A stretch of DNA of 64,000 nucleotides from Paramacrobiotus metropolitanus (GCF_019649055.1 NW_026570295.1:62001-126000); one strand, 5' to 3'; counted from the stretch's first letter, positions 17,901 through 45,600 are shown. Notes: generated by a model from the sequence alone, not told the origin. Numbers and translations: made by a program.

Positions 17901-20900
17901 GGCTGATTTATTTATTTTCGGTATCCCCTGCAGTCACCATACCTGAAAGCCACATATGCCGGCGTCTTCATGCTGGCTGAGGTCAGTATGGCGCAGAGAC
18001 AGTGACCTTTACTGCACGTACCGATGTATTTGAAGCAAAGGTTTTTGATTAGGTTTTGAATGAAACGTACATATCGGAGCCGGCGTTTGACTGGAAAGAC
18101 GGGGAGAGTTTGGCCGGGAAATTTCTACGCCGCACCTACCACTCCCGGGTGGGTCTTACCGGGGTTAGCCGCTTCGGGGATGCGGTGGTCAATTTAAGTC
18201 TACGCGCCAGCAGTCCGACAGGAGATTATTTACAAGTAAGTGAACATCAGCAAAATACTACTGTAGTAATTATACTTCTATACTCATGTTGCTACATACG
18301 GGATATCTTGCTACCTATCTATTTCTGGTTCGGACCATATTAATTTTGACTGTCACTTGACCGCGAATTCGTCGAAAGCTTTTGAAGATTATGTTCAATG
18401 TTTTTTGGTTAAATGTGATATGTAATTGCCAGCGTCTGTCTATAGTAAGAAAATTAGAACAACGACGATAAAGAATCTAAAGGTCATACATATACTGTAA
18501 TATGGGATTTAATGTAGTCACATTGTAGTGCAGTGACAGAAATGGAACTTACTCGTATATAGCACAACGTGCATATCTGTAGCAAACGAACGTATTATAC
18601 ATATTATGTTTCCGTAAATTAGCATTAAATTTTTTCTGAAAATACTGCTAATTTTTTTCTTCCTGCCGAGCTTTTTACAGCAGCTTTACTGGCAGTATAC
18701 CCGTAGCTTTTTTTGGATAGGTCGTTAAACAGTGGGACAGCGAAAATCAACGTTACCTGAACGTCAGTAGCATTTATTGGCCCAACGGCTACGGTCCACC
18801 GCCCAACGTCCCGGTATGCGGATACGAAGGTCTTTCGTGCCACGATCCAGGTACACTAAAGATTCTTTCAATATCGCTCGCAATTATCTTGTGATTCTGC
18901 TTGGATAGCGGACTATGTGCCGATTGTGGCTGGCGTAATTGGAGCGGTATGTGTGGCGATCGGGGCTGCGATCATGGCCGGATACCGCATAAGGTCATTC
19001 ATTTACTTTTCCCGCTGCAATCGTTATTGATTAGTTGTTTTGAAAAATGGTTGTGCGACGCGCAAATGCAACTGTTTACTGACAGACAATTGATAAATAA
19101 AGGTCACGCGCAGCACAAGCCCTGATCAGCGATCGCAGTTGGGTGTTGGATGCGCTGCTGGTGCAAAGTGTCTCCATGCAGGATTCTATGCACTGGACAC
19201 GTGTGCCGCCCCAGGCAAGTTAAAATGTGTTTATGTGGTTATTTATCTACGCCCATAAATCATAATTATTTATATGTATTTCTATACAGTATTCTGTTTT
19301 TATACTTATGAATTACAATTGTTAAAAATACCTTTACACCGGTATGCTTTTTTCAGCTTTAGTTTAATATTTGTAAAAGTAATACTAATTTATCTGTCAC
19401 ATTTGATGGTATTTGTACACGTTGTACAGATAGAATGTATAACTAAAAAAGAACGATGGAAGTGTTCGTCATAATCATGAACTCAAAGGTTTCGGTTTTT
19501 CCAGAGAGTTTCGTGTTACGCATGGTTTTCGCGAAGTCGCTTGGACATGATGGAACCAAGTTCGGTAATCAGCTAACAACTTATAAAATTCATGAAACTG
19601 TAAAAAAGTACTAACGAAGCCCTCGCAGTCATATTAATTTCGTTTTGCGTACCAGACAACGGCAGCAGCGCATGTCGTGGGTAAAGCGCTGTACGACGGC
19701 AACTACATCTGGTCGAAGTGTCTGCACACGCTGCCCATTGGCGGCAACAACGCCAGCAGCATGATGACGCGCTACAATCCCTCTTTACAACTGCTAATGT
19801 CACAGGTGGTAATACCTGTTCGTCGCAGATATTACTACGCTCTGTATTATGCATGAATTATGATTGCAATTGTGTAGATTCGTGGAGTAACACATCCGTG
19901 TATTAATCGCACCGTGGGACTGTATGCCGGTCCATCGTTGGGCCGGCTGCAGTGGATCCACGTGGTCAGTCAGTGGTGTCCCCGCGGGTCACTGCATGAT
20001 CTCTTCCAGAGTGCTTCCGTCACCGTGGATGTTGAGTTTCGTTGCTCATTAGTCTGTAACTTAGTTGAGGTTAGTTTTTTGCAAAAATAATGGTGTATGA
20101 GTAATCATTTTTATATGCAATTGCAATACATTAGGTATACTTACAGGGCCTGAATTTTATCCACACACAGCCGGTAAAATTCCACGGGAATTTATCCGGC
20201 AGCCGGTGCCTTATTGATCAACACTTTACACTGCGGATTAGCCAAGTCGGTAGTTATCAGCTGCAGAACTTGCTGCAGCTGCCGGCTGACAATAATCGGC
20301 GCTATCGCGATCCAACACGGTTCTTCTGGACGGCACCGGAAGTGCTGCGCCATGAGTGCCCGCCCAGTCAGTTGACCGATGTCTACTCCCTGGCCATGAT
20401 CCTCTATGAGATCTTGCTGGCCAAACAACCTTACCAAAATGATCACGGCATCGATCCGCACGGTATATTCCAGATTTCGGCAAAGAGCTGATGAACCCTG
20501 TTATTTATACGAGTTCTATAACTACATAACAAACTGATAAATTTCAATATGACATTTATTTTATTATTTTTACTTACGATTTATGCTCAGAGCATTAGCA
20601 TGTCCTATTTAAATATTATTATTATAAAAATTTATTAATGACCATGGTATATATAGTTCTAATCCTGCCGCTTCATGACTGTTTCTGTTCATATATCTGT
20701 TAGACATTTGCAACACAATCGTCTTAAAAATCAGTGGTTTTTATGCGCCTCCAACTTGTAGGCGCATAAAAACCACTGATTTTTGGAGGCTCCAACTAAT
20801 GCAATAATCAGCTGTCACTTCGTGATCTTTTCATTCAGTTCCACATAATTTGTGCAGAAATCCTGCGAGCGCTGACGCGTAACAGCGGCATTCTGCGCAA

Positions 20901-22267
20901 CGAGCCCATTCTCCGCCCGTCTTTCACAAACCAAGAGCTGCAACCCGAGTGGATCGACCTCATTGAGCACTGCTGGGACGAGAATCCCTTCCGTCGGCCG
21001 GACCTTCGCCATCTCCGCCACGCGGTGCACCACATCATGGACAGCATGGATTTGAAGTGCGGTCGCTTGTCCTATGGGGAAAATGTCCTGCAACGCTTTC
21101 TCCTCTACTCCAGTCAGCTCGAGCAGGAAGTCAGTAACCGCACCGCCATGCTCTTTACGGAGAAAGCCAAGTACGACCGCCTACTGGAAGAGATGCTGCC
21201 CAGGTGCATACCTGTATGACTGTATATGTATAGCATCAATAAAAATCATATACATATTAATATAGCATATTTTTAAAGTATTTATTTTTATACCATATTG
21301 TATAGCAACAATATAGCATACTTTTACTAACTTTACTGAAGATGTTTTTTACTGAATATTTTTACTGACTTTTCCGGTATCGTTCACGGTGTATTAGCGT
21401 TAATAAGACAATTTGTTTATAAAGCACATACCTGGATTTATTAGAACGTTGGTGCTGAGACTACAACGCGGAGAAGCCGTGACACCCGAAGTGTACGATT
21501 CAGTGACGATCTCCTTCAGCAGTCTTGACGGAATGGCAGAACCTCTGAGCCGGGCCACGCCCTGCGAGCTGATCCTGGTGATGAACCATTTTTTCGAAGT
21601 CCTGGACACGGCCACGGCGGGATTAGTCGTCCATAAAGTGCGCACTGCCGGTGACCTTTACATGGTGAGCAGCTGTACATATGCTACAGTCAAGCAACCA
21701 TTCAGATTTCTGGACGTTGTTTGATAAATCAGCGTTGTAGATGGCGTGCGGCATACCGGATGTCAGTCACATGGAGCATGCTCGAGAAATGTGCCTTATC
21801 TCGCAGAAGATGCAGCATTTGTTCGAGGCGTCGGGACGGGAGGATATTAATCTGTTACAATTGCGCATCGGCATACACACGGGTATGAATGCTCATAACG
21901 AAGTGTTAACGCATTATGGGGACGAATACAGATAATTCTACAAATTTTTATATTTGGCAGGGAGCTGCGCTGCAGGAGTGATTGGCGGCAACCGGCCGCG
22001 ATACTACTTGTAAGACTAATACGTCGCTTATACAGGTTTCTTGAATTCTCCTCAGTTTTATGGCTTTTAAACTTTTGTGCCAGGTTTGGGGAAGCGGTGA
22101 AAACCGCTAGCCAGATGTGTCAGTACGGGGAGGGCGACCGCATCCATCTCAGTCAGACTACGGCGGATGTACTGCTGGATAACTTTCCCCATTTCCACAT
22201 TGTGCCGCGCGGTCGCATTGCCATACACAACCGGAAGCGAGTACTGACCTATTGGTTGCTGTTCTGA
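14919..22267 (+). CDS. Receptor guanylate-cyclase homologue 1, probably inactive
   Basis: Twenty exons, phase-consistent, give 1057 residues: 14919-15255, 15853-15916, 16355-16668, 16975-17018, 17178-17216, 17377-17457, 17709-17846, 17934-17981, 18053-18235, 18721-18850, 18909-18993, 19103-19214, 19656-19805, 19878-20069, 20147-20462, 20858-21203, 21445-21664, 21741-21882, 21961-22009, 22084-22267. Order of parts: signal peptide, ANF-receptor ectodomain (MTNGDY motif), membrane helix at 463-485, kinase-homology domain (DVYSLAMILYEIL; HCWDENPFRRPDL), dimerisation linker, cyclase domain from about 861. Natriuretic-type receptors make cGMP on ligand binding. Here the first metal Asp is Ser886, the guanine-reading Glu and Cys are Arg926 and Tyr996, and the catalytic Asn and Arg are Lys1003 and Gln1007; only Asp930 remains. 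It should not make cGMP. The start at 14919 puts the signal peptide at the very N-terminus. Confidence 0.85.
15640..15735. repeat. TA/CA microsatellite in cyclase 1 intron
   Basis: Irregular repeats of atacat and atat units in the intron between exons 1 and 2. They create spurious frames of Tyr, Ile and Thr on the plus strand. Confidence 0.8.
20726..20784. repeat. 25-bp perfect inverted repeat (hairpin) in cyclase 1 intron
   Basis: Arms 20726-20750 and 20760-20784 are perfect reverse complements around a 9-nt loop, within the intron before exon 16. A decayed half of the same sequence is seen near 25829 at the edge of the cyclase pseudogene, so the hairpin was present before that duplication. 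It could be a small foldback element or a structured intron RNA. Confidence 0.9.
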
Positions 22268-23190: not shown

Positions 23191-25066
23191 TTAATAACCA
23201 TTTCCACATGCCCCTACGCCATGCAGTCCCGCTCGCCAGCCGTTGTTCGCTTTCCACTGCGTCACCTGGTAGTGCGCCAATATCAGCTCACCGAAAAACA
23301 TTTTGCGGCGCATATTGTTATTATTCTTGACAACCCAACGACAGGCCGTGGAGTAAAGAAAGCGGGCGGACTCACAACTGCCCCGAAATGAGATATGCAC
23401 CGGCTGGCCGTGTTGCAGGATGTCCGCCGCACGCACCACATTGTCTGGCATCGCTGTGGTATGAGTATGCGGCATGCTAATGGCAAGCCACACCAACGCC
23501 ACCTTCTTCCCATCCCATCCGGTAACCTCGGCTGGCATCCACCAATCTCCGTTACGCACAAAGACACTGTCATTCAGCTGAAACTCGGGCACCACAACGC
23601 GGAACACTCCAACACGGCGCTCCGTGGGAAAGGCCAGTGCCGTCGGCTTCGGGTCGGCGTTGTGATACAAGAAGATGCTGCCGATTTCAGCCGCGTTCAG
23701 GAGTCCACTCTGTTCATGTACACCTTCCATTATATACCGCAAAAGAATAAACAGATAAGAGCTCACCTGGCCAGGACCCTTGGCTAGCTGCGACGAAGTC
23801 AGCAGTGGGAAGCGCACCAGGTACAAGGCGTCTCCCAGCATCTGACGCCGATTGGCACCGGACGACTCCAGATCGTTACGGGCACAGGCCGCCGCTGCCC
23901 ATCTAAACCATGCCAGCATGTACAATAGTCAAATATATATACTAATTATATTTCTACTTTTTGGATTTATTTTTATGTGGTCCTTATTTCAATTTTTCCG
24001 TTCAGTAAATTCATATACTAATTCACAATGTCAGTTCATTAAATTCGGTATTTTCAAAATCGAACGCGCTGGCGTGTCTAATGTTTATGAGCCTCTTGGC
24101 CGTTTTACGGTATCACCGACACAGCCGCACGACGATAACTGGTTACACAGGGTGAAAGGAGTGCATAACTGCAGGCTTGTAGCCAGTCGTTCGTACCGTT
24201 CCACCGCCAAATACACCGCATTCTCCTCCGCCGTGAGTGTATTGCGCTGCAGAATCATCCGCAGCGTCGCCTGGCTGATGGCCGCGAACTTATCCAATCG
24301 CAACACCGCTTCACTATTCACGTCCACCACATCCAGGCATTTCGGGACGACACTGTCAGCCTTCCATTCGACGGCCTGCAATGTACAAATCTAACCAATC
24401 AGTTTTAGTTTTAGCATTACATGATAATGCGGCGCATGCTTACGACGCACCTGTTCCAGCGTGGTCAGGCAGTTGTCCACATTGAGCTTGCTGACGATGG
24501 AATCACTCAGACCAGAGCAGATCTTCACCAGTCCAGGCAAGTCGTACTTGTCAGCCGCACGCAGCGTTGCAAAGACATTGCCAGCATTCAGATTTTCCAC
24601 GGCATCAGTGTACATGAAGCTGCAAACAAGGTAAAATGGAGGCTGAGATGTGGAAGAGGAAACGGCAACAAACAAGTATCCATTTCCCAGCGACCTACCT
24701 GAGGAGATTGTCGAACGCTTCTGGAAGGATATCGGGAATATCGAGAGCTTTTTGGCACTTCTCTGGCAGACTCCCGTAGAACATCGTGCGCAGCACGGAA
24801 CTGCGTGCCGCGAGGATCAGCCTGCAAGAATACATACACCACATTTCTGCAACTGCAGAAAACACGCCTGCACCGTCCGCTGTCACTCAGTCAGTGTGAT
24901 CTCACTTGTGCGCGGAGAAGTTCTTCGATGGGCCGAAGTGGCGTCCTACGGTGAAGTGCACATCACACAGATCTCCATTCACCAACAGTTGCTGCATGCA
25001 TTTCGCCAGCTTCCATTGAGAATCGGGCCCAACACACGCCGTCGAGGAAGTCACATTCTTGGACAT
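23191..25066 (-). CDS. BTB-BACK protein, BTBD3/6-like, with novel C-terminus (copy 1)
   Basis: Exons 25066-24906, 24821-24699, 24619-24451, 24375-24197, 23902-23767 and 23709-23191 give 428 residues. An in-frame stop just upstream fixes the ATG. The BTB core reads GDLCDVHFTVGRHFG, then LILAARSSVLRTMFYGSLPE, then FMYTDAVENL. The BACK part includes TAEENAVYLAVER and RRQMLGDALYLVRFPLLT, closely as in BTBD3/6. After SGLLNAAEIGSIFLYHNADP, where those proteins begin a PHR domain, this one has a different module (DSVFVRNGDWWMPAEVTGWD; VVRAADILQHGQPV). BTB-BACK proteins commonly bring substrates to Cullin-3 ubiquitin ligases; that role is inferred. Its 5' region and first exon match copy 4 better than copies 2 and 3. 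Confidence 0.8.
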
Positions 25067-25828
25067 GATCGGTTATTCTGAATATCGACAGATGCTCCAA
25101 AGATGCAAAAAATGCCTCAAATCTGAAAATAATAGATCGTATGAAGACTGGCGTAAGTAAATCAGTAATCACGGTGGTAAATTTACTCAAATTAGAATAA
25201 CCAGAACCTGCAAAAGTCCCCAACACAAACAAAATTTAAAAATTCGAGATCCGCAATAGAAGCTATACAGGGAAACGACCAGTAGCGAGGAAGTCTCAGG
25301 AAGGCTAATTTGCCATTGATAATCTACGGCGCAAGTCACTTCCGGAAGCTGTTATTTTAAGTGGTGCGCAACCTTTGCGAGAAGACAGTTACCAGTACTC
25401 ACCTGTTCGGTGATTGCATTGTGCAAACTCGGCAAGTAACTAGTAAGTACTCGTACTTCGCACGTACGACGTACTTACATATTTTGAAAAATCTCATACA
25501 GCATTTTTGGTTTTCGAAAAAAGGAAGTTGTGGAATCCTTGTACGTTTCAAATTATTTTACTTATTATCCATTTAGTCGTCTTTTGGGTTTTCAGGTTCT
25601 TTGTGCTCTTCCTGCCCAAGCGAGTTAAATTCGCCTATGACTTACAATTGCAATTAGTGTAACAAAAATTAAATGCGAATAATACGGATCGAAATTCTTT
25701 ACCGGAGTTCTTTGTTGTAATTCGTATTAATTTACCAAGATAATATCGGTCTTGATCAGGGTTCATGTACACATCTACACAGTTAAGCGATGACAAACAA
25801 AATCATCATCAGAAAAGTCAAAACTTTT
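25067..25828. other. 5' flank of BTB copy 1
   Basis: A block at about 25250-25400, including a stretch reading gcgcaacctttgcgaga, is repeated at about 36570-36830 upstream of BTB copy 4. It is probably a shared promoter region. No gene is seen. Confidence 0.5.
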
Positions 25829-26930
25829 TTATGCGCCTCTAAATTATAGTAGTGATTGGTTTACCTTGCCGTGACCTTTCAAAACCTTTGCAGCATATAC
25901 CTGATTTGTACACAAATCCCGCGGGCACTGACGCGTAACATTGGCAAGCACCCATTCTCCCCCCGTTTTTTCCCAATCAGGAGCTGCAACTCGGAGTGGA
26001 TCGACCTGATTGGGCACTGTTGGGATGGGATTCCTTTTCGCCGGCCTGACCTTCGGCATCTCATCCCCGACGTGCACCACATCATGATCAGCATCGAGCA
26101 TTTGTACGGACACTTGTCCTATAGGGAAAATGTTCTGCAGCAACGTTTTCGCCTGTGCTCCAGTCAACCAGAATCGTCATGCTGCTCACGGAGAAGGTCT
26201 GATATGATCGATTACTCAGTAGGAGAGTGTCATCCCTGTACATTTTATTGCTCCAGTTAAACCTACTTCATGGGGATGGTGATGCTGTCGCCTTTACATG
26301 GCAGTGTTTAGTGCATTAGCGTTAAGACAACAATTTGTTTAAAAAATGTCTTATAGATTATGTGAAGATTGATGTTGAGATATGCAACCATGGAAGCGGC
26401 GACACCGGAAGTGGGCGATGCCTAGACGATCTCCTTCAGCAGTCTGGACGGGATGGCATCTCCTTTGAGCCTGGCCACACCTTGCAACCTGATCCTGGTG
26501 ACGAACCATTTTTTCGGGGTCTTGGACTGGCCGTGCACAAAGTGGGTGCTGCCGGCGACCTTTACATATGGTCATCAGCTATACGACTATTGCAGTCAAT
26601 CAACCATTGATAGCTTTCATGTTTGACAAATGACCGTTTTAAATGAAGCGGCACCCCGGACGTACGTCAACCACATGGAGCGAGCTCGCGAAATGTGCCT
26701 TAGTCTTGCAGAAAATGCATCTGTTCGAGGCGTCGGCCGGGGCGGGAGGATAGCAAACTGATACAACTGCGCATTGGCATACACACCGGTTGGAGCGATT
26801 GTAATTTGTAATGAATGATAAACACAGCGTGTCAATGCATGCTTCTTTTTTGTGAAGCGAACTGCGCAGCGGGAGTAACTGGTGGCAACTGACAGCGCTA
26901 CTGCTTGGAAGATTGACTGGTACAAGTCCA
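25829..26930 (+). pseudogene. Pseudogene of receptor cyclase 1, 3' part
   Basis: Segments match exons 16-19 of cyclase homologue 1 in the same order and with introns kept: 25905-26215 (WIDLIGHCW, FRRPDLRHL), 26380-26575 (TISFSSLDGMA), about 26642-26790 (REMCLS in another frame) and a short piece near 26858. The acceptor of the first has changed from gcag to acac, a TAG interrupts the segment near 26422, and small indels break the frames. Kept introns show a DNA-level duplication, not a processed copy. It lies between BTB copies 1 and 2, in the same relation to copy 2 as the intact gene has to copy 1. Confidence 0.85.
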
Positions 26931-27151
26931 TTGACAGACAGTCTATCCATTTTCACTTTGGCCGGAAAAAATATTTATTATCACGTTTCGAGAAGCAGTG
27001 GGAACATTCAACGGGAACAAAACACAATTAAATTACGGAAGATTATTAAACTAGTGCGGTCTCTACTGTCATGCAGAACCACATATAAAGATTACCATGA
27101 ACTAATACAAGTTACACAACCATCTCCGGAACCAGTAAGTCCATGTGGTCA

Positions 27152-29103
27152 TCACCGGCCATTATGGGCTTTCCACTGCGTCACCTGACGGTGTAGCAGG
27201 CTCAAGCAGCTGAATGGTACGGACACAGTACGAGGACCCCAGAAGACCTCATGCAGACCATCCGCCGCAGCCTTTGAGTAACTGGCTGTCTGGCAGTTGC
27301 CAGAATAAAGAATGTGCAGGGGCTGCCCCGGCTGCAGGATTTCCGATGCTCGCACCACCTGGTCCGTCGTTTTGTAAGAACGTGTGCCACTGCAACTCCA
27401 CTTTAACACTAGCTTCAGCCCGTTCGAACCGGTGATGGTGGCCGGCATCCACCAATGTCCTTCGACAGTCTGCGCAAAGACAGTTTCATCCGGCTGAAAC
27501 GTGGGCGCTGCAGCGTTCGGCAATCCCGTGCGGCACTCCGCGGAAAAGGCTGGTGCCGTCGGCTTAACCTTGGCTTTCTGTTGCAGGAAGATGCTGCCGA
27601 TTTCCGCTTCAGTCAGGAGACCACTCTGTTAACGTTAATGAATCAAACACTGCAGGGTGCGTGCAAAGGGACAGCCCGACATCAGCTCACCTGGCCAGGA
27701 CCGTTGGCTAGCTGCCACGAAGTCAGCAATGGGAACCGCACCAGGAACAAGGCATCCCCCAACATCTGACGCCGATTGACGGCAGACGAATCCAGGCCAT
27801 TCCGTGCACAGGCCGCCACTCCCCACCTACAAGTTGCCAGCATACATATAATTACCAGGTTTATTATTATCACCATAGTAATATTAATAGCAAGCCAACT
27901 TCTTCAAGTAATGATACGAGCTACGTATTTATTGTAGAAAAAAGTTTAATTTCCGGTTCATTTCTACGAGGTTTCTGTTTACAGTTTTCGTATAATCAAT
28001 CCTGTATGGCGTATAATGTCTAGATTTCCCGCGCTGGCATTCTTATCTTTCACGAGACTGTCGGCTGTTTTAAATGTCAGTTGTTTTAAATGATGGCTGG
28101 CCCATACGCCAATCAGCCATTCGTACCGTTCCACCGCCAAGTACACCACATTCTCCTCCGCCGTAAGTGTACTGCGTTGCAGAATCATCTGCAATGTCGC
28201 CGGGCTGATATCCGTGAACCGATCCGATCGCATCACCGCATCACTCTGCGCATCCACCAAATCCAGGCATTTTTGCGCGATACCGGCAGCACTCCACTGG
28301 ATGGCCTGAAATTAGCAGTCAAACAATCCGTGTTGCATAAAGCACCGTAACCATTCGGGCCACAAAACTACACACCTGTTCCAACACGGTCAGACAGTTA
28401 TCCACACTAAGATGGTTGGCGATGAAGTCGGAGCAGATCCTGATCAGCCGCGGCAAATCGTACTTGTCAGCACAAACCAGCGTCGGGATGACGCTGTCCG
28501 CAGTCAGATTCGTAACATCACCGGTGTACAGGAAACTAAGAGCAGCGACAGCGGGATGTCCGGAGAATTAATCGAACAGAAACAAGCTGGCAAAAATTAA
28601 TGTGAACAGCCGTGCTATTACGAATGCTCGTGCTGTTTTTCGTATCACGTACTGTAGCATATTAGAGAAGGCCTCTGGCATCATGTCGCGGATGTCGATC
28701 GCTGTGTCACCGTTTTCAGGCAAACTCCCGAAGAACATCGTCCGGAACACCGGATTGCGAGCAGCCAGAATGAGCCTAAAGCAGCAAGCATAACAGTAAT
28801 AACACCAACGGATTTAAGAAAGTATACGGATACACAACTACGCATGTCATTACTGACAATCTGTTGTACAACCTGTACACTACAGCGATGAGCGAGGCTG
28901 GATTCGTACACGCCATCACGATTCACCATAAACTCGTACCTGTGCGCGTGGAACTCCTTGGCTTGTCCGAAATCCCGTCCCACCACAAAGTGCACGTCAC
29001 TCAGATCGCCGCTGCACAGCATCTCCTGCATGCTAGCGGCGACTGTATCCTCGGAACTGGGTCCATTACGAACCGTCGATGATGCAGACGGATTCATCGA
29101 CAT
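27152..29103 (-). CDS. BTB-BACK protein, BTBD3/6-like (copy 2)
   Basis: Exons 29103-28940, 28775-28653, 28535-28376, 28305-28127, 27826-27691 and 27625-27152 give 411 residues. The frame is open to an ATG at 29181, but a well-kept acceptor (ttctgtag, also found upstream of copies 3 and 4) lies between, so the inner start is preferred and a leader intron is likely. The order of parts is as in copy 1: BTB (GDLSDVHFVVGRDFG; FRTMFFGSLPENGD), BACK (TAEENVVYLAVER; NRRQMLGDALFLVRFPLLT) and the WW-containing C-terminal module (GHWWMPATITGSNG; VVRASEILQPGQPLHI). The last exon is shorter than in copy 1. All splice phases agree and no lesion is seen, so it is probably functional. Confidence 0.8.
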
Positions 29104-30476
29104 GGTCGGGTTACCCGTTACTGCGTCGAAAACCCAGCGACTGGAAAGACTGCGCTTGAATCCTACAGAAGAATATGCCACAGATCAAAGGAAAATGCCG
29201 TACACGGTCACGAATCACGATCCCAAAGTTAATAAAAATAACTTGCAAAATGCGAAAATCAAAACCTATTTACTTTTTAGTACTTGTATCGAGAAAATGA
29301 TTGAAAATCCGATTGAAGTCATATTAAAGTGCCAGAAAATAACCATGTGAGTGGCTGAGTGCGAATTTTCATTTTCCATGCAAAGTGTTCACGGCTCACG
29401 TAAACGCCGTAAGGCGGAGGCAGTGGGCAACCATGTTACGATAGCTTGCTTCCGCTCACTGGGCTTTCCGAACAGCTCGCTTTGCCACCAATACAATTTT
29501 GATTTTGTATGCCTTTAACACTTTTTTCATTTTTGTTTTGTTTTTCAATGCTAAAATTTTAAAATTGAGATGATAATTTAAATAGTTTAAATATTGTCCG
29601 TGCTTGCAATTGTGTTACTCGGGTTACTGTAGTGCAGCAAGAACAGCCCCGCAGTCCACCGTATCTGCAACATGCTAATACTGCGACGTGAATGAATAGT
29701 AAGTAAAAATTATAAAATAAATTTCACATAAAATTAAATTAATTTTATAAGTTGTGGTCGTAGACTCGTAGCTGTATAACTTTTATAAATAAAAGTGAAG
29801 TCTTTCGTGAATTTATTGATGTTTACGCTTCAGATTTAATGAGAGAGGTCGTTTTTATGAAAACTAACCATTTCTGTGAATTTTGTTTTGTTAGGACATT
29901 TTGCTACCTGGTGACCGGAATATGAAACTGTTTAGTCACACTGACCGGAATACGAGAAAACGCGAAGTACACTTAAACAAATGTTAGCTTGTCAAAAAAA
30001 CCGTTTTGGGCAAACAATAAGTAAAACAGTGCAGGACACGGTCTAGCGCGGCACGACGTCACGGTGTATACTATATCTATATTTATAAACATAAGCACCA
30101 AAATGTGGCGCGTCCATTTGGACTGCAATGAGTTCTCATGGCGAAATGTGCGCAAAGTTGACGATGCTAATTCACGAGAATCACTCCGTTACAGACACCT
30201 CATTTCCCGTTCTTATACTCGTCTAAGAAAGCACTTTTATTTCCAGTACTGTTATGAATCAAACTATCAAACACTTTTACAGGAGCTAACGTAAACACCG
30301 ACCAGAAATTCCATCGCAAAAAAAACAGAATGGTGGCGAAAATAATAATGCAAGACAGTAAATGGTAGTGATCTCTAGTGTGATGCAGAAATCCCGTACA
30401 AAGATCAAATATAACCTAATAAAACCTGTGGAAGTCAGTAGTAAGTCCACGCAGCACTGTAGATACAGTACCATCC
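29104..30476. other. Region between BTB copies 2 and 3
   Basis: It holds the 5' flank of copy 2 and the 3' flank of copy 3 and no supported gene. Unlike the spacers before copies 2 and 4, I find no cyclase remnant here. Confidence 0.45.
29388..29478 (-). repeat. Conserved upstream block, BTB copy 2
   Basis: About 90 bases here, containing cacggctcacgtaaacgccg, are repeated nearly unchanged at 32708-32800 upstream of copy 3. The surrounding flank is less alike, so the block may be a shared promoter or leader exon. It lies about 300 bases upstream of both start codons. Confidence 0.7.
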
Positions 30477-32386
30477 TCATTGTTTATTGTCAGCTTTCCA
30501 CTGCTCCACCTGATGGTGCAGCAGACGCAAGAGGCTGAGCGGCGCGAAATACGGAAGGCTACCCACAGTGACCCAGTGTTCATTGTTTGCGAACATCGGG
30601 ACAGGATCCATATCGTGCTCTACATGGCTAGCCGGCTTATAGGAGCCTGCAAGGCGAATTTCCAAAGGCTGGCCCGGTTGCAGGATGTCCGCTGCACGCA
30701 CCACCTTGTCGTCGTTGTGGTAACCCTTCCGCCGTTGCGACTCCAGTCTAATTCCAGCAGCATCCCATCCGATCCGATAACCGTGGCTGGCAACCACCAA
30801 TCTTCGTCCGCAGTTCACGCAAAGACAGGCTCACCAGGCTGAAACGCGGGCGCAACAACTTTCGGCAATCCAATACGGCGTTCGGTGCGAAAGCCAAGTG
30901 CCGTTGGCTTAGCGTTGGCATGATAGTGCATGAAGAGGCTGGTGATTTCCGCTTCATTCAAAAGCCCACTCTGTTAACAGACAGCGTCAAACACTCACAT
31001 ACTGCAATTTAAATGTCAAAGATAGCCTGACGGAAGCTCACCTGGCCAGGACCGTCTGCTAGCTGCGACGGAGTCAGCAGTGGGAACCGCACCAGGAATA
31101 ACGTGTCATCCAGCATCTGACGCCGATTGACGGCAGACGAATCCAAGAAATTACCAGTGCAGGCCGCCACTGCCCATCTACAACGTGCCAGCATGTGTAC
31201 CTAATTCCCGTTTTTATAATTTATCATCGCATACAGGAAAGCCCAGTCGTTTAAATCATTTTTCATAAAAACTTTTCAATTTTTTGTTGCATTTTTATGA
31301 AGCGTTTGGTGTTATTCTTGGTATAAGTAAATCAAAATCGAATGCGCTGGCTTTCCTATGCTTCAAGAGCCTGTCAGCCGTTTAAAGTAACGATCAACAC
31401 CGCAACCCTGAGAGCCGCCAGCTATTCGTAGTAGTTAATTTCGTACCGTTCAACCGCCAAATACACAGCATTCTCCTCCGCCGTGAGTGTGTTGCGCTGC
31501 AGAATCATTCGCAGCGTCGTCAGGCTGATGGCCGTGAACTCATTCGATCGCAGTACTGCTTCAGTCTTCGCGTCCACGAAATCCAAACAATTCTGCACGA
31601 CACCGTCAGCCTTCCAGTAAACGGCCTGCCACCAGGTACCGATCCGTATGAGTATTACATAATAATGCGGTGCACGATGACGACGCACCTGTTCCATCAT
31701 GGTCAGACAGTTGTTCACACTAAGGTAATTGGCGATGAAGTTGGAGCAGATCCTGATCAGCCGCGGTACGTCGTACTTGTCAGCACAAACCAGCGTCGGG
31801 ATGAGGTTATCCGCAGTCAGATTCCTAACATCATCGGCGTATAGAAAACTAAAATACAGTCAGTGGCAGCGGATTAGGACGAGAATTAATCGAGCAGAAG
31901 CAAACAGCAATGAAACTGAACAACCGTACTACGAATGCTTGTGCTGCTCTTCGTATTACGTACTGGAGCATATTGGCGAAGGCGTCTGGCAGCATATCGG
32001 GGATGTCGATGGCTGCGTCACCGTTTTCACGCAAACTACCAAAGAACATCGCACGGAACACCGGATTACGGACAGCCAAGATGCACCTAAAGTTAGGACA
32101 AGCATAAAAATAACGGATCAGAAACGTACACAGATACGCAACTAGGCATATCAAGTAAGTTGCACACTGCAGCGAGACTGGATGTGTGCACGCCATCAAA
32201 ATTCAAGATACAGCCGTACTTGTGCGCGTGGAAGTCTTTCACTTCCCCGAACTGACGTCCCACTGCGAAATGTACATCACTCAGGTCGCCGCTGCACAGC
32301 ATCTCCTGCATGCTATCCGCTATCGTCCCCTCAGAATTGGGCCCATCACGAAGGTCCGTCGCCGATGCAGTCGGATTCATCGCCAT
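30477..32386 (-). CDS. BTB-BACK protein copy 3, C-terminal module lost to a stop
   Basis: Exons 32386-32220, 32086-31964, 31848-31689, 31625-31447, 31177-31042 and 30970 onward align with the other copies. In the last exon a TGA at 30815-30817 stands where copies 2 and 4 have a Gln codon, just before the WW motif. Reading would end at 306 residues. Beyond the stop the same frame still reads DEDWWLPATVIGSDG, then a one-base shift near 30720 moves the homologous text (DDKVVRAADILQPGQP) into another frame as far as 30477. The BTB and BACK parts are intact, so a shortened adaptor lacking the C-terminal module may still be made. Otherwise it is a young pseudogene. A sequencing error could explain one lesion but hardly two. 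Confidence 0.75.
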
Positions 32387-33692
32387 GGTCGGGTTACTGC
32401 GTCGATAACTGTTACGCCAGCGACTGGAAAGACTGCACTTGAATACTACAAAAGAATATGCCACTGATCAAACGGAAATACCGTACACGAATTAGGATCC
32501 CGAAGTTAATAAGAAAAACTTGCAAAATGCGAAATCAAAAACCCATTATGTAGAAAATCCGGTTAGAGTAAGTACAGTACTAGTACTCGTACTTCTACTG
32601 TAAGTGTTGTAGCAGTCTACGTACTTGTACTAACCGGTATATAAAAGCTTCTCCAGAAGTAACCGCACGACTGACTGTAAAGTGTGAAATTGCGAATTTT
32701 CATTTTCCATGCAAAATGTGCACGGCTCACGTAAACGCCGTAAGGCGGGGGCAGCGGGCAACCATGCTACTGTAGCTTGCTTCCGCTCAATGGGCTTTCC
32801 GGACACTGGACAGCTTACGAATTCCTTTTTTCGCAAAAAAAAACTGTTAATCGCACACCAAAAAGTTTTTTTGTATGCATTTAAGTTTTATGTTTGGCTT
32901 TTTCTACGCTGATAATTTTAAATGTGAAGAGGATTTTCCGCGCTTGCAATTGTGTTATCCGGGTAAGTCGGGTGAGTCGTCTAACTGTAGCACAGCAAGA
33001 AGCAGGCTCCAGAATGTCACAAGCCTCTATAATCGCTTGTTTCTATAATCGCTATAATCGATTGTTCGCTATAATCGTATCAAAGAACACTAATTCTGAA
33101 TGTGAGCTGGACTGAAGGAGTTGTGTAGCTGCGGACCATGTTATGATACAAAGGCCACCGGCTGTCGCACTCTGTACACGGCCCCATGCCCATGGCCACT
33201 CCGCATAGTGCCGCCCAATCTCTTTCCGTAACGCGCAGATTCTGTAAAGCATCGTAGCTAGCAAATAGCAATGCACGAATAGAGTTAAACTGTTAGTTGG
33301 TTAAAGATTTTTCCCTAAACCACAATAGCCTTTTCAGCTGGCACAGTGATTAAGCAAAAATTTACACGCACTCGGTAGCTCGCCTGGATACGCGTAGCCG
33401 GGGTTTCGCGTCCATTCAACGAAAAATGCAAGCTAGGATGGGAAGCGATTCTTTTATGGAACTGGTCATTGTGTTTCCTTCTGCGCATACAGGGTACGTA
33501 TTCACCGCAAGTATCTGCGAAAAAGAGTTCTTGTGTACATGAGTAAAATGAATGAAACGTTTGGCTTTGCACAAACACGTTAAAGTGTTTTCGACTCACT
33601 TCGTTTTCTTCGTTTTCTTCGTTTTTTACAGCACAATAACCACACAGTTTTAAAACATGCGAATGCTTAAGTACAGTAATGCACTCGTAGAC
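32387..33692. other. 5' flank of BTB copy 3
   Basis: It contains the second copy of the conserved upstream block (32708-32800), a run of overlapping tact/agtac motifs near 32570-32640, and no supported gene. A minus-strand frame at 33080-33271 is unexplained but matches nothing I know. Confidence 0.45.
32708..32800 (-). repeat. Conserved upstream block, BTB copy 3
   Basis: Partner of the block at 29388-29478, with the same orientation and the same place relative to the gene. It begins with the same catgcaaa word and shares nearly every base through gctttccg. Confidence 0.7.
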
Positions 33693-33743
33693 TTCGGGAC
33701 GGGGGAACATTAATCTGCTACAACTGCGCATTGGCCTACACAT
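33693..33743 (+). pseudogene. 51-bp relic of cyclase 1 exon 18
   Basis: The stretch matches 21828-21880 (end of exon 18) at most bases, including ttcgggac and aactgcgcattggc. It is isolated, with no other cyclase exon detected around it. It lies between BTB copies 3 and 4 and is oriented like the intact gene, so it is probably the last trace of another duplicated cyclase tail. Confidence 0.65.
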
Positions 33744-34547
33744 TCTGACACTGGTACGGTTGCACATACCGGTAATTATAAAAACGATTGTGCCCCATGA
33801 TCGCATAACGCACTGTAGGATATATAATGCCTAAATTATTATTTGTTATACACTTGCGGATACTTGCACCATATTTTCCCCATTCTATGCGCGAATTAGG
33901 GGCATTACTTGCTTTGCAACAAAAATGGAAATGAGGGAAGTTATCAGGGCAGGGCATCTGCCGTAGTATGGCTGAGAAGGATACGGTCGTAATATATTAC
34001 GAGGATTTTGAAATGGTTCACAAAGGACAAAAACTGTAAATGACCTTCACATTCTGTGTTAGGACTAGGTATAGACATAGCCGCGTAGGGGCATCTGGTT
34101 AGTGGACGCAAATACACAGAAGGTCCCGGCGCATCCACTGACCATTCATTGGACAACAATGAGAACTGGTTGTAAAATATCTTACTCAAACCTGAGAAAC
34201 CGACGGAGGCCTAATCCCAAATTCTTCATGCCAAATAGCTTCCGATACAGTTTCGTTAAAAACGAGGCGCACTTATTCGCCGCATTTGTTTGTGAAACGC
34301 CTTATAGAAGATATCCGGTGAGTCGGTAACTAACAATACCATTACACGCTTCCACCGGAGCTAACGCAAACACAGACAAAAATTCCATCCCAAAGGAACA
34401 AAATGTCGGCAAAATTAATCACAAAAAATGGCAAACTGTAGCGATTCCTTGCGGAATGCAAAAGTGAGGTACAAAGATCAAAAGTATAAACTAAAAAAGG
34501 CCACCTCTACAGGCCAATAAAGTCCACGCAGCCCTGTGGTCGTCCCC
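33744..34547. other. 3' flank of BTB copy 4
   Basis: The part near 34360-34530 resembles the 3' flank of copy 3 (30290-30470), with shared words such as aaattccatc and gtccacgcag. No other gene is seen. Confidence 0.5.
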
Positions 34548-36364
34548 TCAATGCCCATTGTCGCCTTTCCACTGCGCTACCTGATCGTGCCGCAGGCTCA
34601 AGTGGCTGAACCCAACGAAAAGCGTACTATGAACCACGGTGACTTCATGCCTACCACCCGCCGTGGCTTTCAAATAGCTAGCCGGCTGATGGTCGTCCAA
34701 ACGGAGCACGTACAGAGGCTGGCCAGGTTGCAGGATGTCCGCTGCACGCACCACCTCGTTGGACTTTATGGTATAATCCTGTGCGCCGGTGCGACACCAC
34801 TTCAGCGCCACATGCATTCCATCGGATGCGAAAACCTTAGCTGGAAACCACCAGTGTCCTCTTCCGGTTTGCGCAAATACCAGCTCATCAGGCTGGAAAC
34901 CGGAAACGTGGCCAGGCGCCGGAGCGCTCGACGACCCAGTGCGGCGCTCCGTGGGAAAGGCCAGTGCGGTCGGCTTCAGGCTGGCGTTTTGGTGCATGAA
35001 GATGCTGCCGATTTCAGCCTCGTTCAGGAGACCACTCTGTCAAATAACAGCAGACTTTGCAATGCTTCACTTAATCGCATCAAACATCCATACACTCTGC
35101 CTGCAAAAGGAGTCTGAAGTCTGCTCACCTGGCCAGGACCGTCAGCCAGTTGCTTCGAGGTCAGCAATGGAAACCGCACCAGGAATAGCGCATCCCCCAG
35201 CATCTGACGTCGATTGACTGCGGACGATTCCAGGCCGTTACGAGCACAAGCCACCACTGCCCATCTGAAACACAGCAAACATGCGTTGTTTCTATCAATG
35301 ACTATCATCATAATATCAGCCCAATCTTTAAAAAAAGATAAAAAAGCAGGTTACGGAAAAAGTTACGGAAAAAACGGAAACAGTTACGGAAAAAGTTGAG
35401 AGTACAGTACCTAAACAAATTATACTTTAAATTTCCTTATGGTTTGTAGAAATTCCTACCGTTCCACCGCCAAATACACCGCATTTTCCTCCGCCGTGAG
35501 CGTGCTGCGCTGCAGAATCATCCGCAGAGTCACCGGGCTGATGGCCGTGAAATGATCCGACAGCAGTACTGCACTACTCTTCGTATCCACAAATTCCAGG
35601 CATTTCTGCACGACATTGTCAGTCTTCCATTCGAGGGCCTGCAGTAGCAATCGACCAAACCTTACGCGTATGCAGTGATGCTAAAAATAACAAATGCCGC
35701 GCACCATTACCACGCACCTGTTCCAGCATGGTCAGGCAGTTGTCCACACTGAGCTGGTTGGCAATGAAGGTGGAGCAGACACTGATCAGCCGGGGAAGAT
35801 CGTACTTGTCAGCCGCACTCAGCGTCGCAAAGACATTGCCCACATCCAGATTATCCACTGTATCCGTGTACATGAAGCTGTCAACACAAGCAAAAGCAGT
35901 CGCAATAAAGCTGAGTTCTCTGCTGAGACCAAATACACAAATGGCTGAAGAAAACAGAAAGAGCACAAACAACACATTAGTCTTCATTTCCCAGCCACGT
36001 ACCTGAGGAGATTGGCGAACGCTTCCGGATGGATATCGGGAATGTCGAGAAGAGTTTGGCATTTCTCAGGCAGGCTTCCGTAGAACATGGTGCGGAATAC
36101 GGAACTGCGAGCCGCCATGACGAGCCTGCAAGAATTACGCAACATCATTCCGTTAAGGCAGAAAACGCAGATTCGTTTATCGTGAGTTTCAGTGTGGGCT
36201 TACTTGTGCGCGGAGAAGTTTTGAGCGGTGCCAAACTGGCGTCCCACTTTGAAGTGTATATCGTTCAGCTCCCCAGCCAGCATCATCTGCTTCATGTAGT
36301 CCCCCAGTTTCCATTCAGAATCGGGCCCATCACAAACCATGGAGAAAATTGCGTTCGTGGACAT
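34548..36364 (-). CDS. BTB-BACK protein, BTBD3/6-like (copy 4)
   Basis: Exons 36364-36204, 36125-36003, 35877-35718, 35638-35460, 35264-35129 and 35036-34548 give 415 residues in frame. An acceptor-like site (ttctgtag) upstream suggests a leader intron. Visible parts are BTB (GELNDIHFKVGRQFG; MAARSSVFRTMFYGSLPEKC; FMYTDTVDNL), BACK (TAEENAVYLAVER; RRQMLGDALFLVRFPLLT) and the C-terminal module (GHWWFPAKVFASDG; VVRAADILQPGQPLYV). The first exon is the same length as in copy 1 (161 bases), shares GPDSxWKL and NFSAHK with it, and has matching upstream DNA, although copies 2 and 3 lie between. The likely role is a Cullin-3 substrate adaptor, by family only. It seems intact. Confidence 0.8.
35338..35398. 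repeat. Short tandem repeat in BTB copy 4 intron
   Basis: Four or so imperfect copies of gttacggaaaaa lie in the intron between exons 4 and 5. The repeat is absent from the matching introns of the other copies. Confidence 0.75.
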
Positions 36365-36990
36365 GTTAAAGGTGGTAATATATGATCCGCGGATGTTCAG
36401 AAAATCAAGAAACGACTGAAAGCTACAGAATAATATGCCAATACGGCAGTAGCCGAGTACAGGTATCAGTACGTATGTACTTGTAATCGTAAAATAATTT
36501 CAATGCCAGTGATGTTTGATCACAAACATTGCTTGCAGTAACTGGTAGTAGTAAGCACAAACCACAAACGTACATACAGGGAAACGGCCCAAAACGGTCA
36601 CAACTAGACAGGCTAATTTGTCAACGAATATTTTATTAAGTTCAAAACTTCAAATCGCGACATTACAGTCATAATTCGATTAACTACGGCCCGGGCCAGC
36701 ATTGCATTGCACAATTAAGAATTAAAAAATCTTTAAATTTGTCAGTTATAATACAGCGCAAACCACTTCCGGAGCCTATTACACATGGTGTAGCGCGCAA
36801 CCTTTGCGAGAGGGCAGTTACTCCCGGCGGCAGTTTGTCATTTTGCCAGTTTACAGCGCTTTGCTGGGTGTCTGGGTGTTTGACAAACACTACAGTACTT
36901 ACGCAGGTTCTTTTCTGGAAGATAGTGGTACTGCTGCAGTTTAGCGATTAGCGAAGGTGTTGAAATTCTGCGTAACTTATCACACTTTCC
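36365..36990. other. 5' flank of BTB copy 4
   Basis: The stretch 36570-36830 matches 25250-25400 upstream of copy 1. It forms the divergent spacer to F-box copy B. No gene is seen. Confidence 0.5.
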
Positions 36991-37003
36991 ATATTTTGTC
37001 ATA

Positions 37004-39570
37004 CCATGATGAGCGCAAGTTGTGCAACACCACGGCACTTTCGCGAACTGTGGTCGGGAACCCGGGAAATCAACTTCGCGGGAACACCGTGCTGGTGCAG
37101 CGCGACTGCGGCAAATGGTGGTTGGGATACGTGCAGGATATCAGTGCCCCGGACTTCCTCGTCGACTTCGATGCCAGCACAGTTAAGGCCGAATGGACTC
37201 ATTCCAGTCGTCTCTGGCCACACCACAGCTTGTGTGGCGACCAGCACGGCAGTTTGAGGCCATATGTTCACACTACCCTGCAGGTGGCGCTGCGGAAGAC
37301 CCACGGTGGGCCGATGGTGTTCCGTCCCGCCCGGGTCGTAGCGGAATTGGAGACACTGATGCTAGGTGTGCGTCTGGACGAGAATAAGCCAGCAAAGTGC
37401 CGCTTCGTCCATCGCGGCCAGTTCGTTGAACGCCTACCGGCGCCGAACGATGGGCAGAGTTTTTTCCGACGAACTGATGGCTTGACGTACACAAAGCACG
37501 TCATCCACTTTCCCGCCGCTGAACAGCTGCGCCGCGTCGATTGCCTGCCCAAGTTAGTGGGCCGGACTTGCAAATTTATCTTGGCTAGTGGGGATGTGCG
37601 TTGGCTTTTCGGTTGTTCTTCCATGCGAACAATTGTCTGCACTCTGCAGTACTGGAGCCACGTGTTTCTATTCCATGGGACCGCCTCTGGTCGGCGGGCT
37701 GCACGCGCGAGATACGGTTCACGTGGGTGTACGCATGTTCGTGCGAGCGGGAAGCGACACTATGACATTCATCTGTCTGGAGGTGCATAACGACGCAGGT
37801 GGGCGCAGGATGTCCTGGGATGAGGAGGCTCTCAGGGATGTCTGCAACAGTTACTTTAAAAAGAGTTCAGCTAATACCGTCGAAGCTTTTCCATTGGCTT
37901 TGGATCTCTGTACGGTCAGTACGACACGCTCGAACAGTCGAATTTACTTAAGTATCAATGTATCATGTCTGGTATCCATATGATCTAATATTCCTTCAAA
38001 TGAAAAATTCCGGGGGGAACGTGCCCCCGTGCCCACCCCCCTTAAATTCGCCCCTGCTGATATTTATTGCAAAATCGCAGATTCGTAGTAGTGTACTCGT
38101 ATCAAAGTAAGTTTAACTAATATTTATTTAGAGTACTTACGTATGATTTATAAATTATAAGTAATGCATAACGGTAAGTTTGTGGTTTACTCTGGTAAGA
38201 ATTCGTTTACTTTCATGGTTATCTACAATTTAATTTACAGTAGACTGGAAAGGTTAAAGGAAAACAACCACAGCTGTAGGGCCATGATCGATGCCGCTTT
38301 TCCTCGCTGGATTTCGATGCTGATCCGCTGGCAAAGACATTCCGTGGTTTTCTCTTATTTTCTGTCCAAGCTCCGTTCAATTTAGTTAATGGTACAGTAT
38401 TGTTACGAGCATGGAAGCATTTAGTTGTTCTTCTTTTGTAAAAACTGTTACATGTTTGCGTGCAGCCGCTTAATTCTTGTGATTCATTATATTCATGTCA
38501 ATGTGCACAAGAAGTCCTTTTATTTCGCAGATTCGTCCGGGGATTATTCCACGGACGTACAAGGAATGTCCATAAATGATTTACCCCACCCGATCTTAGC
38601 TTGGGTTTTTGGTAATATGGATGTGGATAGTAAACTGCGCTTGTACAGGTAAATTCGCATCAGTCCTTTCCTAAATTAAACTCAAAACGGTGTAAACGGC
38701 TGTTGTGTAAAATGTGGATTGTGTCACAGCCTTTCACATGGAAACTGTATCCATAGCATTAGTTATTTTTTGTACATTATTCTACTGTTTCAACCAGGGT
38801 TTGCGCGTTGTGGAGGGAGATTTTGCGGGGATATAAGGGCCAACAGCCGGTTATCCTGGAGTTTGCGCAGATGTGGCCGAAGACGACTTACCTGCCTGAT
38901 CGACCTTTTGTGTACGATTATCGCCACCTACCAACTCGTAGCCCTGCTGGACCGTAGCATTACGACGCAGACCAAAGCGCTGGTGCTAATAGACTGCCAG
39001 CGTTATCCACCCGGCGACGATCTCGGACCGAAGATGGCCGCCGTCAAAACTGTACTAGCCGCTAAAGGAATTCGTTTGTCCCTGATTATCGTGAAGAACG
39101 GCTTTGATGTCACTACAAAATGGGCAGCGATGTTTCTGGCCATTGACGGCCATAAGGCCGGTAAAAACGTCGACGGCCAGCGAATGAGCGCTCTGTCCGA
39201 CGTGATGAGCGTATGCGACAAGCTGGTTCTGATCAACTACATGGCGTCGAAATCGGTCAGCGAATCAGCAGAGAATCTGATATTCTTCTTCGACGACCAG
39301 GATGAGATTGTACCTAAAGCCCTTACTTCGGCCGGCTGGCGTACCCATTTTGTCTTCGTCGATTTGGGTGAGAACATTCCCTACCTTCGTTTTCGCCGCG
39401 AGGAAACAGCGACTGAACAGTATCTGCGGTTTTTACGCGCTGCCAAGGATAACTGCCCACCCGTCAGCCTGTATCTGCAACAGAAGGCCGCAACGATGTA
39501 TGCGCGATGGGTGAATATAGTGGAATACCCCTATGGATGGATCGGCATTCGCAAATTCCTGAAACTGTAA
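37004..39570 (+). pseudogene. F-box protein copy B, frameshifted
   Basis: Homologue of copy A. A suitable ATG at 37004 is in one frame, but the SH3/Tudor-like part (NTVLVQRDCGKWWLGYVQDI) begins about 37086 in another. A further shift is needed near 37570-37690 to reach DTVHVGVRMFVRAGSD. The F-box exon is 38531-38648 (DLPHPILAWVFGNMDV), and the last exon starts at 38798 with RVCALWREIL. A third shift near 38900 leads to the long conserved C-terminus ending in MYARWVNIVEYP, which matches copy A (VHARWVQTLAYP). Three breaks suggest a pseudogene or a poorly assembled stretch. The long open C-terminal frame, about 220 codons, implies that decay is recent if real. The family role would be a Cullin-1 ligase adaptor. 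Confidence 0.65.
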
Positions 39571-42629: not shown

Positions 42630-45600
42630 TCAGTCGTCGGGCGGGAGGGGATGCGGCACGAACGCCGGTTCCCCGCTGTCGCCCGGCGGATGGTGGATCT
42701 CCACGGCCACCGCCCCCGGGGGACCGTCCGCCTCGGCCAGGGTCTCGTCGATAATCTCCGCCAGGATACTGATGTCGGTGCTGTACAGCCAGAAGGTGGC
42801 CAGGTCGGTGTGGCGGGTAATGGGCGGCTGGCGGAGTTCCGTGGCGAATTCCGGGCAGTCGGCGATCAGCATGGCTGTCGGTTTGGAGATGTGGATCTTG
42901 TCAAAAAGGCAGTGGGTGCACAGTACCAGTCCCACACGCAAGACGTTGCCCAGACTGAAAGTTGGTGTCGTTAAAACACACGTATGGTTTAATTACGTAG
43001 CTGTATAATCCCCGTTCAGATGATTAAACTGGATTTGCAGTATATATTGTATGCTCGTATAAGGGATGTGCGTGTACTTACAGTCTGTACTGGAGTTTCA
43101 TGCCTTTCCCGGTAATCACAATTGTGCATGAACCTGTAACGATTAGTTTAATGACCTGGGTGGAATTTTGCTGCCGCACTCCAAATTTGCAAACACCTTA
43201 TCGCTTTTTCGTTAAGTACCGTATGCCAGTATATATATGTACAACCACCAAAAACTGAATGCAAGAAAATTAGCTAAAACAAATATATTTATTCTAGTAT
43301 TAAAATGTTCATTCATTCTACACGTGTGAATTGGTACGAGATCAGTTATTTCGAATATCACAAAATTTTATTTCGTGTCGAATGACTAGAAAATGTTACA
43401 ATGTTAAGAACACCGAAAAAGGTCACCGGACTGAACACCAGTATATGTTGTACGGTATTTTGTACCTGTGTTAATGGCCATTTTAAGAAAGACCGGAATT
43501 TGTTTAGCCGCAAACGTCTCCCGGACTGTCGACTGTACGGTTAAGGCGAAGGCACAGATCTCGCGGGCGTTGTCCAGTGCGTTGGTTGTGGGCGACATAC
43601 CCGAGACAAACTGTCAACACAAGTTACCAGGATAACGCGCTGTTCATCGCGGTTTTATCAGGCGTCTTACGGCGTTGTAGTCGGAGAGTGTGGCAATGCG
43701 GGACACATGGAATTTACTGATCAGATCCTCCAGGATGGCCTCGACGTCATTTATAACGACGGTGGTGTCGGCGGGGCTGTTTTGCTCTATAAAGGCACCG
43801 AGCCCCTCCATGGAGGTTAGCAGTACCGACACGCTATCCATGCGTTCCGCGTCTTTTAAAGGATTTTCTCCCGCTCGTATTCGAGTGACAATATATCTAC
43901 AGAAATATATCCTTGTAATTTGTACAATAGTTCGCTTTGGTTGCTTCTACAGATATATAACATCATATATATGATGATTCATATATATATTCATATATAT
44001 ATGATTCATTCTTTCATATATACGAGTATATGATTTGTATTATTTGTATCATATATAGATATAAAGTATGTCATATAATATTTCTATACGTAATATGCGT
44101 AATATATTGTGCATCGATGTACTGATATATCTGTATAACGCGTTTCAGCCAGGTATACAGAACCCGTACTGGTACAGATGCAGTAGGAATGCATGCTTTC
44201 TTTTGTTTTTTTATCGTTAAAATTGTATATATTATATGCAAAGGTCATTATGAGCAAATGCCTACTTTTATAAACGGCAGGTGCATAACTATTCCGTTCA
44301 AAGGTCCTGGCAATAATTTAATTTTGCATATGTAATTGTCTGTGACCTTTGGAAAAGAACATTCCTACGACGAAATTAAAGAATTGCTATATATTTCATA
44401 TGTACATAATACTTGTGATGTTGATACATATTACTTATGTACATATTACTTAAGCACATATTACTTATGATGTTTCATATAAGACGATCTACTTGTATAT
44501 AGGCTTGTATTGTACTAGTATGTAAAAGCACTTTTGTACATACGACTTACGCGGGTAGTTTGTAGGACAGGATCTCGTAATACTTCTCCACCTGCTGCTC
44601 TAGTTGCAGCGCCTTCTGATTAATATCATTCTGCAGTTCCTCCGTGTAATCCTGCAGTCGCTGTATGAGCTTATCCATGACCTGTTCACCGGCGATCTTC
44701 CGTGCGCCCGACGGGCCGGCCGAGAACTCGTTAAAGTAGCTTTTCAGTTGAGCAATGGATGGACGCAGGTCGGGATTGGCGTTCCAGCAGGACTGCAGTG
44801 CCGGGACCATGGGTTTGAAAGGCTTCGGCAAAAGATTAAAGTTCGCCGTCTGCTGCAGAGGATTGTGCTCGCCAAAATCCAAATCTATATGTACACGATG
44901 ATGTTAATAAACGAAAAGGTCACGCTGATCAAGAAATTTCAATTGTAGTAATAGTTAATAATTGTCAAAAAGTATTTTGTAGCATTCTAAAAATATTATT
45001 ATTGCTGTCTCTATTTCTTTAGCATAATTACTTTTCAATGTCCAGAAATCGTAGCGATTATTCTTAAAGCAATACCAATTACGTATATCATTAAATATAT
45101 TTAGGTATTTGTTTAACACCGTTAATAATATTTTAATATTGTTATTTAACAAGTATAAGTACCTGAAGGATCCAAGTACAGCAGCCGTTTATAGAGTCGC
45201 TCCTGCGTGATAATCTCAAACAAAATAAATCCGGTGGAATAAATATCCCGTTTTCTTCCCGAGACAATGTTGGAGGTGAAAAACTCGGGTGCCGCCCAGT
45301 ACGCCGGTTCCCATTCATCACAGTCATATTTGCGCATCTTAAAATAGCGCGGATCCAGCCCGCGTTGGATACGCTCATAGGCCAGGTGGATGATCTTCAC
45401 CGAGAAGAACTTATCCACGTGCAGCCGGAAGGTACTTAACCGGCCGTGATACATTATACTGGAGTTGTGGATGTACTCCAGCGCCTGTAAAGGGCAATGA
45501 CACAAATACGTCGCACTTGTGCATTTATTCGGTTATTCCTATGGATTCTGTGGAAGCGGTAGAGCGATTCCCACGCTGCCTCAATCTTGGGAACAGCTGT

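Follow-up and report, generated by a model that had tools for sequence, protein, structure and literature searches.

The window, a 64,000-nucleotide stretch of the Paramacrobiotus metropolitanus genome (GCF_019649055.1 NW_026570295.1:62001-126000), carries a cluster of four genes on its minus strand, between positions 23191 and 36364, which spliced protein-to-DNA alignment resolves into six exons apiece (Table 1). Exon sizes are near-identical across the four copies, at about 161, 123, 160, 179, 136 and 470 nt. The full protein encoded by copy 4 matched the Pfam BTB (5e-25) and BACK (7e-10) domains and had no Pfam match in its C-terminus; the best PDB sequence match to its BTB domain was BTBD6 (2vkp, 8e-20). 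These results support the BTBD3/6-type BTB and BACK domains that the initial annotation had assigned to all four copies, with the exception that copy 3 is not whole. The last exon of copy 3 contains an in-frame TGA (30817-30815) followed by a change of frame, so that the intact set is limited to copies 1, 2 and 4, and copy 3 is probably a pseudogene or an assembly error. The linker that follows BACK, which in copy 4 begins at a shared phase-0 intron and is common to BTB-BACK-PHR genes, was present as annotated, as were the WWxPA, VVRAxxILQxGQP and QVxQWKxxN motifs.

Table 1. Coordinates of the four-gene cluster, counted from the first letter of the window.
Feature	Position	Strand	Basis
Copy 1, BTB-BACK-tandem Tudor gene	23191-25066	-	spliced alignment
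Copy 1 exons	25066-24906, 24821-24699, 24619-24451, 24375-24197, 23902-23767, 23709-23194, then stop	-	spliced alignment
Copy 1 C-terminal tandem Tudor module	23194-23589	-	homology to the AlphaFold2-modelled copy 4 module
Copy 2, BTB-BACK-tandem Tudor gene	27152-29103	-	spliced alignment
Copy 2 exons	29103-28940, 28775-28653, 28535-28376, 28305-28127, 27826-27691, 27625-27155, then stop	-	spliced alignment
Copy 2 C-terminal tandem Tudor module	27155-27505	-	homology to the AlphaFold2-modelled copy 4 module
Copy 3, same architecture, broken last exon (region 30480-30970)	30480-32380	-	spliced alignment
Copy 4, BTB-BACK-tandem Tudor gene	34548-36364	-	spliced alignment, Pfam
Copy 4 exons	36364-36204, 36125-36003, 35877-35718, 35638-35460, 35264-35129, 35036-34551, then stop	-	spliced alignment
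Copy 4 tandem Tudor module	34551-34904	-	AlphaFold2 model, structural match to the 53BP1 tandem Tudor domain
Copy 4 BTBD3/6-like linker (SGLL..E..SIF..KP..F.TERR)	34941-35036	-	conserved

Predicted fold of the C-terminal module

Given the last exon of copy 4 together with 68 paralogous last exons, AlphaFold2 returned a model of the module (mean pLDDT 88.8, pTM 0.73) that consists of two tandem 5-strand SH3-like barrels. Numbered by last-exon residue, barrel 1 occupies 47-102 (predicted strands 52-56, 62-71, 75-80, 86-91 and 95-97), barrel 2 occupies 107-149 (predicted strands 107-112, 115-124, 129-134, 137-142 and 146-149), and an end helix covers 150-160. The top Foldseek match of this model was the tandem Tudor domain of 53BP1 (E 1e-5), which VIA-align 2 superposed on the module with a Z of 15.3 over 113 residues (2.2 A, 8% identity), and Crb2 ranked second (Z 11.3). 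A single Tudor/Agenet or PWWP domain was rejected as a description of the module, as the remaining structural matches covered only one barrel at a Z of 9.0 or less, against 15.3 for the barrel pair.

From the agreement of AlphaFold2, Foldseek and VIA-align we therefore identify the module, at the level of its predicted fold, as a tandem Tudor in the 53BP1/Crb2 arrangement; descent from an ancestor shared with 53BP1 has not been established. Because identity is so low and hhalign found no match between the module and a single 53BP1 sequence, we treat the likeness as one of fold. Sequence profiles gave independent but only weak indications, with PHF20, PHF20L1, the HDGF PWWP and the Pcl Tudor amongst the matches in a PDB-sequence profile search (E 0.014 to about 1, alongside a few unrelated entries) and Myosin_N SH3, DUF4537 and Agenet amongst Pfam members. 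The initial annotation had proposed a barrel-like module, possibly of Tudor/Agenet type; the Tudor assignment is supported and can now be sharpened to the 53BP1/Crb2 type, with two barrels in place of the one envisaged. The two barrels and end helix share their mutual arrangement with 53BP1 and Crb2, whereas sequence identity to these proteins is only 8-16% and the module is fused to BTB-BACK and not part of a DNA-repair scaffold. UHRF1 likewise joins a tandem Tudor to the ubiquitin system; however, it is a RING ligase whose barrels are arranged differently with respect to one another, such that only one barrel could be aligned (Z about 8).

Copy number and descent of the family

Using the last exon of copy 4 as the query, we searched the assembly from which the window comes (533 contigs, 169.8 Mb in total). 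Of 237 first-look candidates, at least 150 gave scored matches, with E values ranging from 7e-110 for the best to 6e-3 for the weakest one listed; by hand count, the listed matches are spread over 35 contigs. Chance is excluded by this number of scored matches to the last exon in the same genome. The count of at least 150 copies is a lower bound, and it reveals a scale beyond what the initial annotation saw, so that the finding had been under-called. Gene models were built at 79 distinct loci, 62 of which contain the full BTB-BACK and module, 15 of which are partial (several being cut by the ends of the stretch examined) and two of which contain the module only. The two introns nearest the module have the same positions and phases in 74 and 73 of 80 models, the intron just before the module-bearing last exon being common to 73, and the last exon is open and of normal length in 74/80.

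Individual members depart from this pattern. One (L081, G000:C11:1321843-1324484) has only two exons, of 158 and 1096 nt, and thus retains a single canonical intron; retro-copying or gene conversion of a segment may explain the loss of the other four. Two others (L080 and L086) have long acidic tails of D/E runs after the tandem Tudor module. BTB domains as a whole are very abundant in this genome, with 1040 first-look candidates for PF00651, many of them single long open frames, unlike the tandem-Tudor family.

The gene structure of the family descends from that of BTB-BACK-PHR genes (BTBD1, BTBD2, BTBD3, BTBD6). BTB, BACK, the linker and all five intron sites that precede the last exon (HK/, LR/, NK/AV, ER/W and Q/SGLL, slashes marking the introns) are common to the family and to the PHR gene at L023; ER/W and Q/SGLL were also seen in most other PHR loci, as far as these could be read. 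The BTB-BACK-PHR genes of this genome likewise have the same linker and the same start of the last exon. Because linker and intron sites are shared in this way, the swap can be placed downstream of the linker (...KP..F....R), within the last exon. In a tree of the BACK-linker region, all 75 tandem-Tudor rows fell on one side of one branch (86/59, 88% of bootstraps), which, as far as this alignment can tell, is compatible with a single origin of the replacement of PHR by tandem Tudor; the tree rests on 135 columns, which offer little resolution, and some PHR rows are partial. Viral and prokaryotic sources of the module were considered and rejected on the scans made: one viral scan gave no match, a search of BFVD gave only matches of poor superposition, and one prokaryote scan produced a single 40%-identity match over 42 residues.

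With upstream exons and the start of the last exon the same as in PHR genes, the C-terminus might instead be a divergent PHR domain missed by Pfam, in which case these would be ordinary BTB-BACK-PHR proteins. Several results argue against this. The PHR model (PF08005) finds just five loci genome-wide, none of which belongs to the tandem-Tudor family, and the PHR domain is encoded over further exons; AlphaFold2, moreover, predicts two separate 5-strand barrels and not the divergent PHR fold that would have refuted the initial annotation, and the structural matches are tandem Tudors. We have rejected this reading, which now seems highly improbable, and accept that PHR is missing and replaced, as first proposed. 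Five PHR loci agree with the published range of 4-7 BTB-BACK-PHR proteins in a metazoan genome (PMC1257465), a number that contrasts with the size of the tandem-Tudor family.

No earlier description of this domain combination was found in the open-access literature, where our searches for BTB with tandem Tudor returned nothing relevant; eukaryotic protein databases were outside the scope of the search. Tudor is also unmentioned in a survey of BTB architectures (PMC1257465). The BTB-BACK-tandem Tudor architecture is absent from Pfam and from the open-access papers searched.

Constraint, the module face and a proposed role

We pooled dN/dS over 21 disjoint close pairs, in three of which one member is broken or overlaps another (copy 3 of the window appears under two names). 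Purifying selection is evident, with values of 0.27 for BTB, 0.30 for BACK and 0.30 for the linker, as compared with 0.61 for barrel 1 and 0.55 for barrel 2. When module positions were divided into site classes, picked by the analyst from the predicted model, the core gave 0.26 and the loop/cage-face positions 0.86. A sign test that leaves out the three compromised pairs found that the module outpaces BTB-BACK in 15 of the 17 independent pairs that could be used (p 0.002; median dN/dS 0.52 versus 0.29), and mean amino-acid identity over all pairs is 30% for the module and 49% for BTB-BACK. The module thus evolves about twice as fast as BTB-BACK, which could reflect relaxed constraint. Positive selection is not shown, since no site class exceeds a dN/dS of 1; what the substitution patterns show is functional constraint combined with a divergent module face.

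The expansion might accordingly amount to a family drifting under relaxed constraint, with many copies decaying and no diversified role in recognition. In favour of this reading, copy 3 is broken, stops occur in the last exon of some other copies, and birth-and-death families often drift. However, general drift sits poorly with the difference in dN/dS between module core and loop/cage face and with the large majority of last exons that remain open and of normal length, and we regard it as unlikely. Judging from a BTB-BACK dN/dS of about 0.28, the family genes look functional.

Given the fold, the module might also be a reader of methyl-lysine histone marks of the 53BP1 type, making these proteins chromatin-targeted ubiquitin ligase adaptors. 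The cage of 53BP1 is formed by W1495, Y1502, F1519, D1521 and Y1523 (PMC5974088), which we mapped approximately, by structure range and motif, to module positions 56, 64, 80, 82 and 84. Aromatic residues occupy these positions in 1, 31, 71, 7 and 0% of copies, respectively, and position 82 is seldom acidic. Aromatics are common at the cage-like positions 62 (63%) and 80, which speaks for a reader, whereas the equivalents of W1495, D1521 and Y1523 are almost never aromatic and that of Y1502 is so in a minority of copies. Across the aligned copies, and within the limits of the approximate mapping, a family-wide methyl-lysine cage of the 53BP1 type is not conserved, leaving a histone-mark reader a doubtful interpretation. 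The residues that are conserved in the module (F54, W63, P65, A66, R97, A98, L102, Y121, H130 and W156) appear to lie mostly in the core, an inference from the pattern of strand alternation and not from coordinates.

The phi-x-E pattern of the BTB domain, which we take to be the Cul3 contact, survives in 54 of 63 copies, and cullin genes are present in the genome. Because these features accompany a BTBD6-type BTB and a BACK domain, a Cul3 adaptor is the most likely role. Many proteins of chromatin and RNA biology contain Tudor domains, and the copies could conceivably function without Cul3, as BTB-dimerised scaffolds or as transcription or chromatin factors, all the more so as Cul3 binding is not universal among BTB proteins. 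The domain types and the retained phi-x-E pattern weigh against such Cul3-independent functions, which strike us as quite unlikely even with the precedent of BTB proteins that do not bind Cul3 (PMC4852199). In adaptors of this kind, the substrate module is considered to be the PHR, kelch or MATH domain (PMC1257465, PMC4852199). As BTB-BACK-kelch, BTB-BACK-PHR and MATH-BTB proteins all take their substrates through the partner domain, we infer that substrate binding is the most likely function of the tandem Tudor; the divergence of the module face suggests, again by inference, different targets for different copies.

We propose that the PHR domain of a BTB-BACK-PHR gene of BTBD1/2/3/6 type was replaced by a tandem Tudor in the 53BP1/Crb2 arrangement. 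In the resulting proteins the BTB domain would dimerise and bind Cul3, BACK and the linker would carry the module at the C-terminus, and substrates would be bound by the barrel pair, whose core is conserved and whose loops diverge, different copies recognising different targets. Binding to Cul3, ubiquitination, the kind of target and diversified target specificity are all inferred, in the absence of binding, expression or proteomic data. On balance, and with no other species compared, we think it probable that the cluster belongs to a very large lineage-specific BTB-BACK family, derived from such a PHR gene by exchange of PHR for tandem Tudor, whose members are Cul3 adaptors with diversified receptors.

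The MATH-BTB (BATH) proteins of C. elegans and grasses offer a parallel, since there too BTB adaptors of Cul3 type have undergone a lineage-specific expansion and possess a recognition domain that varies, although their recognition fold is unrelated and precedes BTB, whereas the module of the tandem-Tudor family is C-terminal and follows BACK. The C. elegans set has 46 members; the tandem-Tudor family is several times larger. Arms races recur among the substrate adaptors of cullin ligases, as with F-box and MATH-BTB proteins in nematodes and plants. A tentative extension, about which we remain somewhat sceptical, is that the 150 or more adaptors form a large diversifying repertoire in which a fixed tandem-Tudor core with a diversifying face steers ubiquitination towards targets that are numerous or that change (those of pathogens, mobile elements or chromatin, for instance), adding a third type of arms-race adaptor to F-box and MATH-BTB. 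The swap is a clean one, traceable by intron positions, and the family provides a system for direct tests of how new E3 substrate receptors evolve and how a Tudor fold evolves once it is freed from reading methyl-lysine.

Neighbouring genes

Head to head with copy 4 lies an open reading frame (36945-37790, plus strand) that is single-exon-like and belongs to a second, larger multigene family (also represented by L088-L112), with 708 first-look candidates of which the best 150 all have E < 1e-30. It had no Pfam match above the cut-off. Its AlphaFold2 model resembles the N-terminus of FMRP, a tandem Tudor with KH0 (Foldseek 2.3e-7; Z 10.2 but rmsd 8.8), and a frame change near 37600 means that the window's copy of this FMRP-like family may be broken. 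Comparison of the C-terminal module with the FMRP-like family, for a possible homology between them, gave an hhalign probability of 31% only, and the arrangement of the barrels differs. Further out, pieces of guanylate cyclase catalytic domain occur at 20800-22267 (plus strand) and 43644-45840 (minus strand), with kinase-like pieces nearby, and receptor guanylate cyclases probably flank the cluster.
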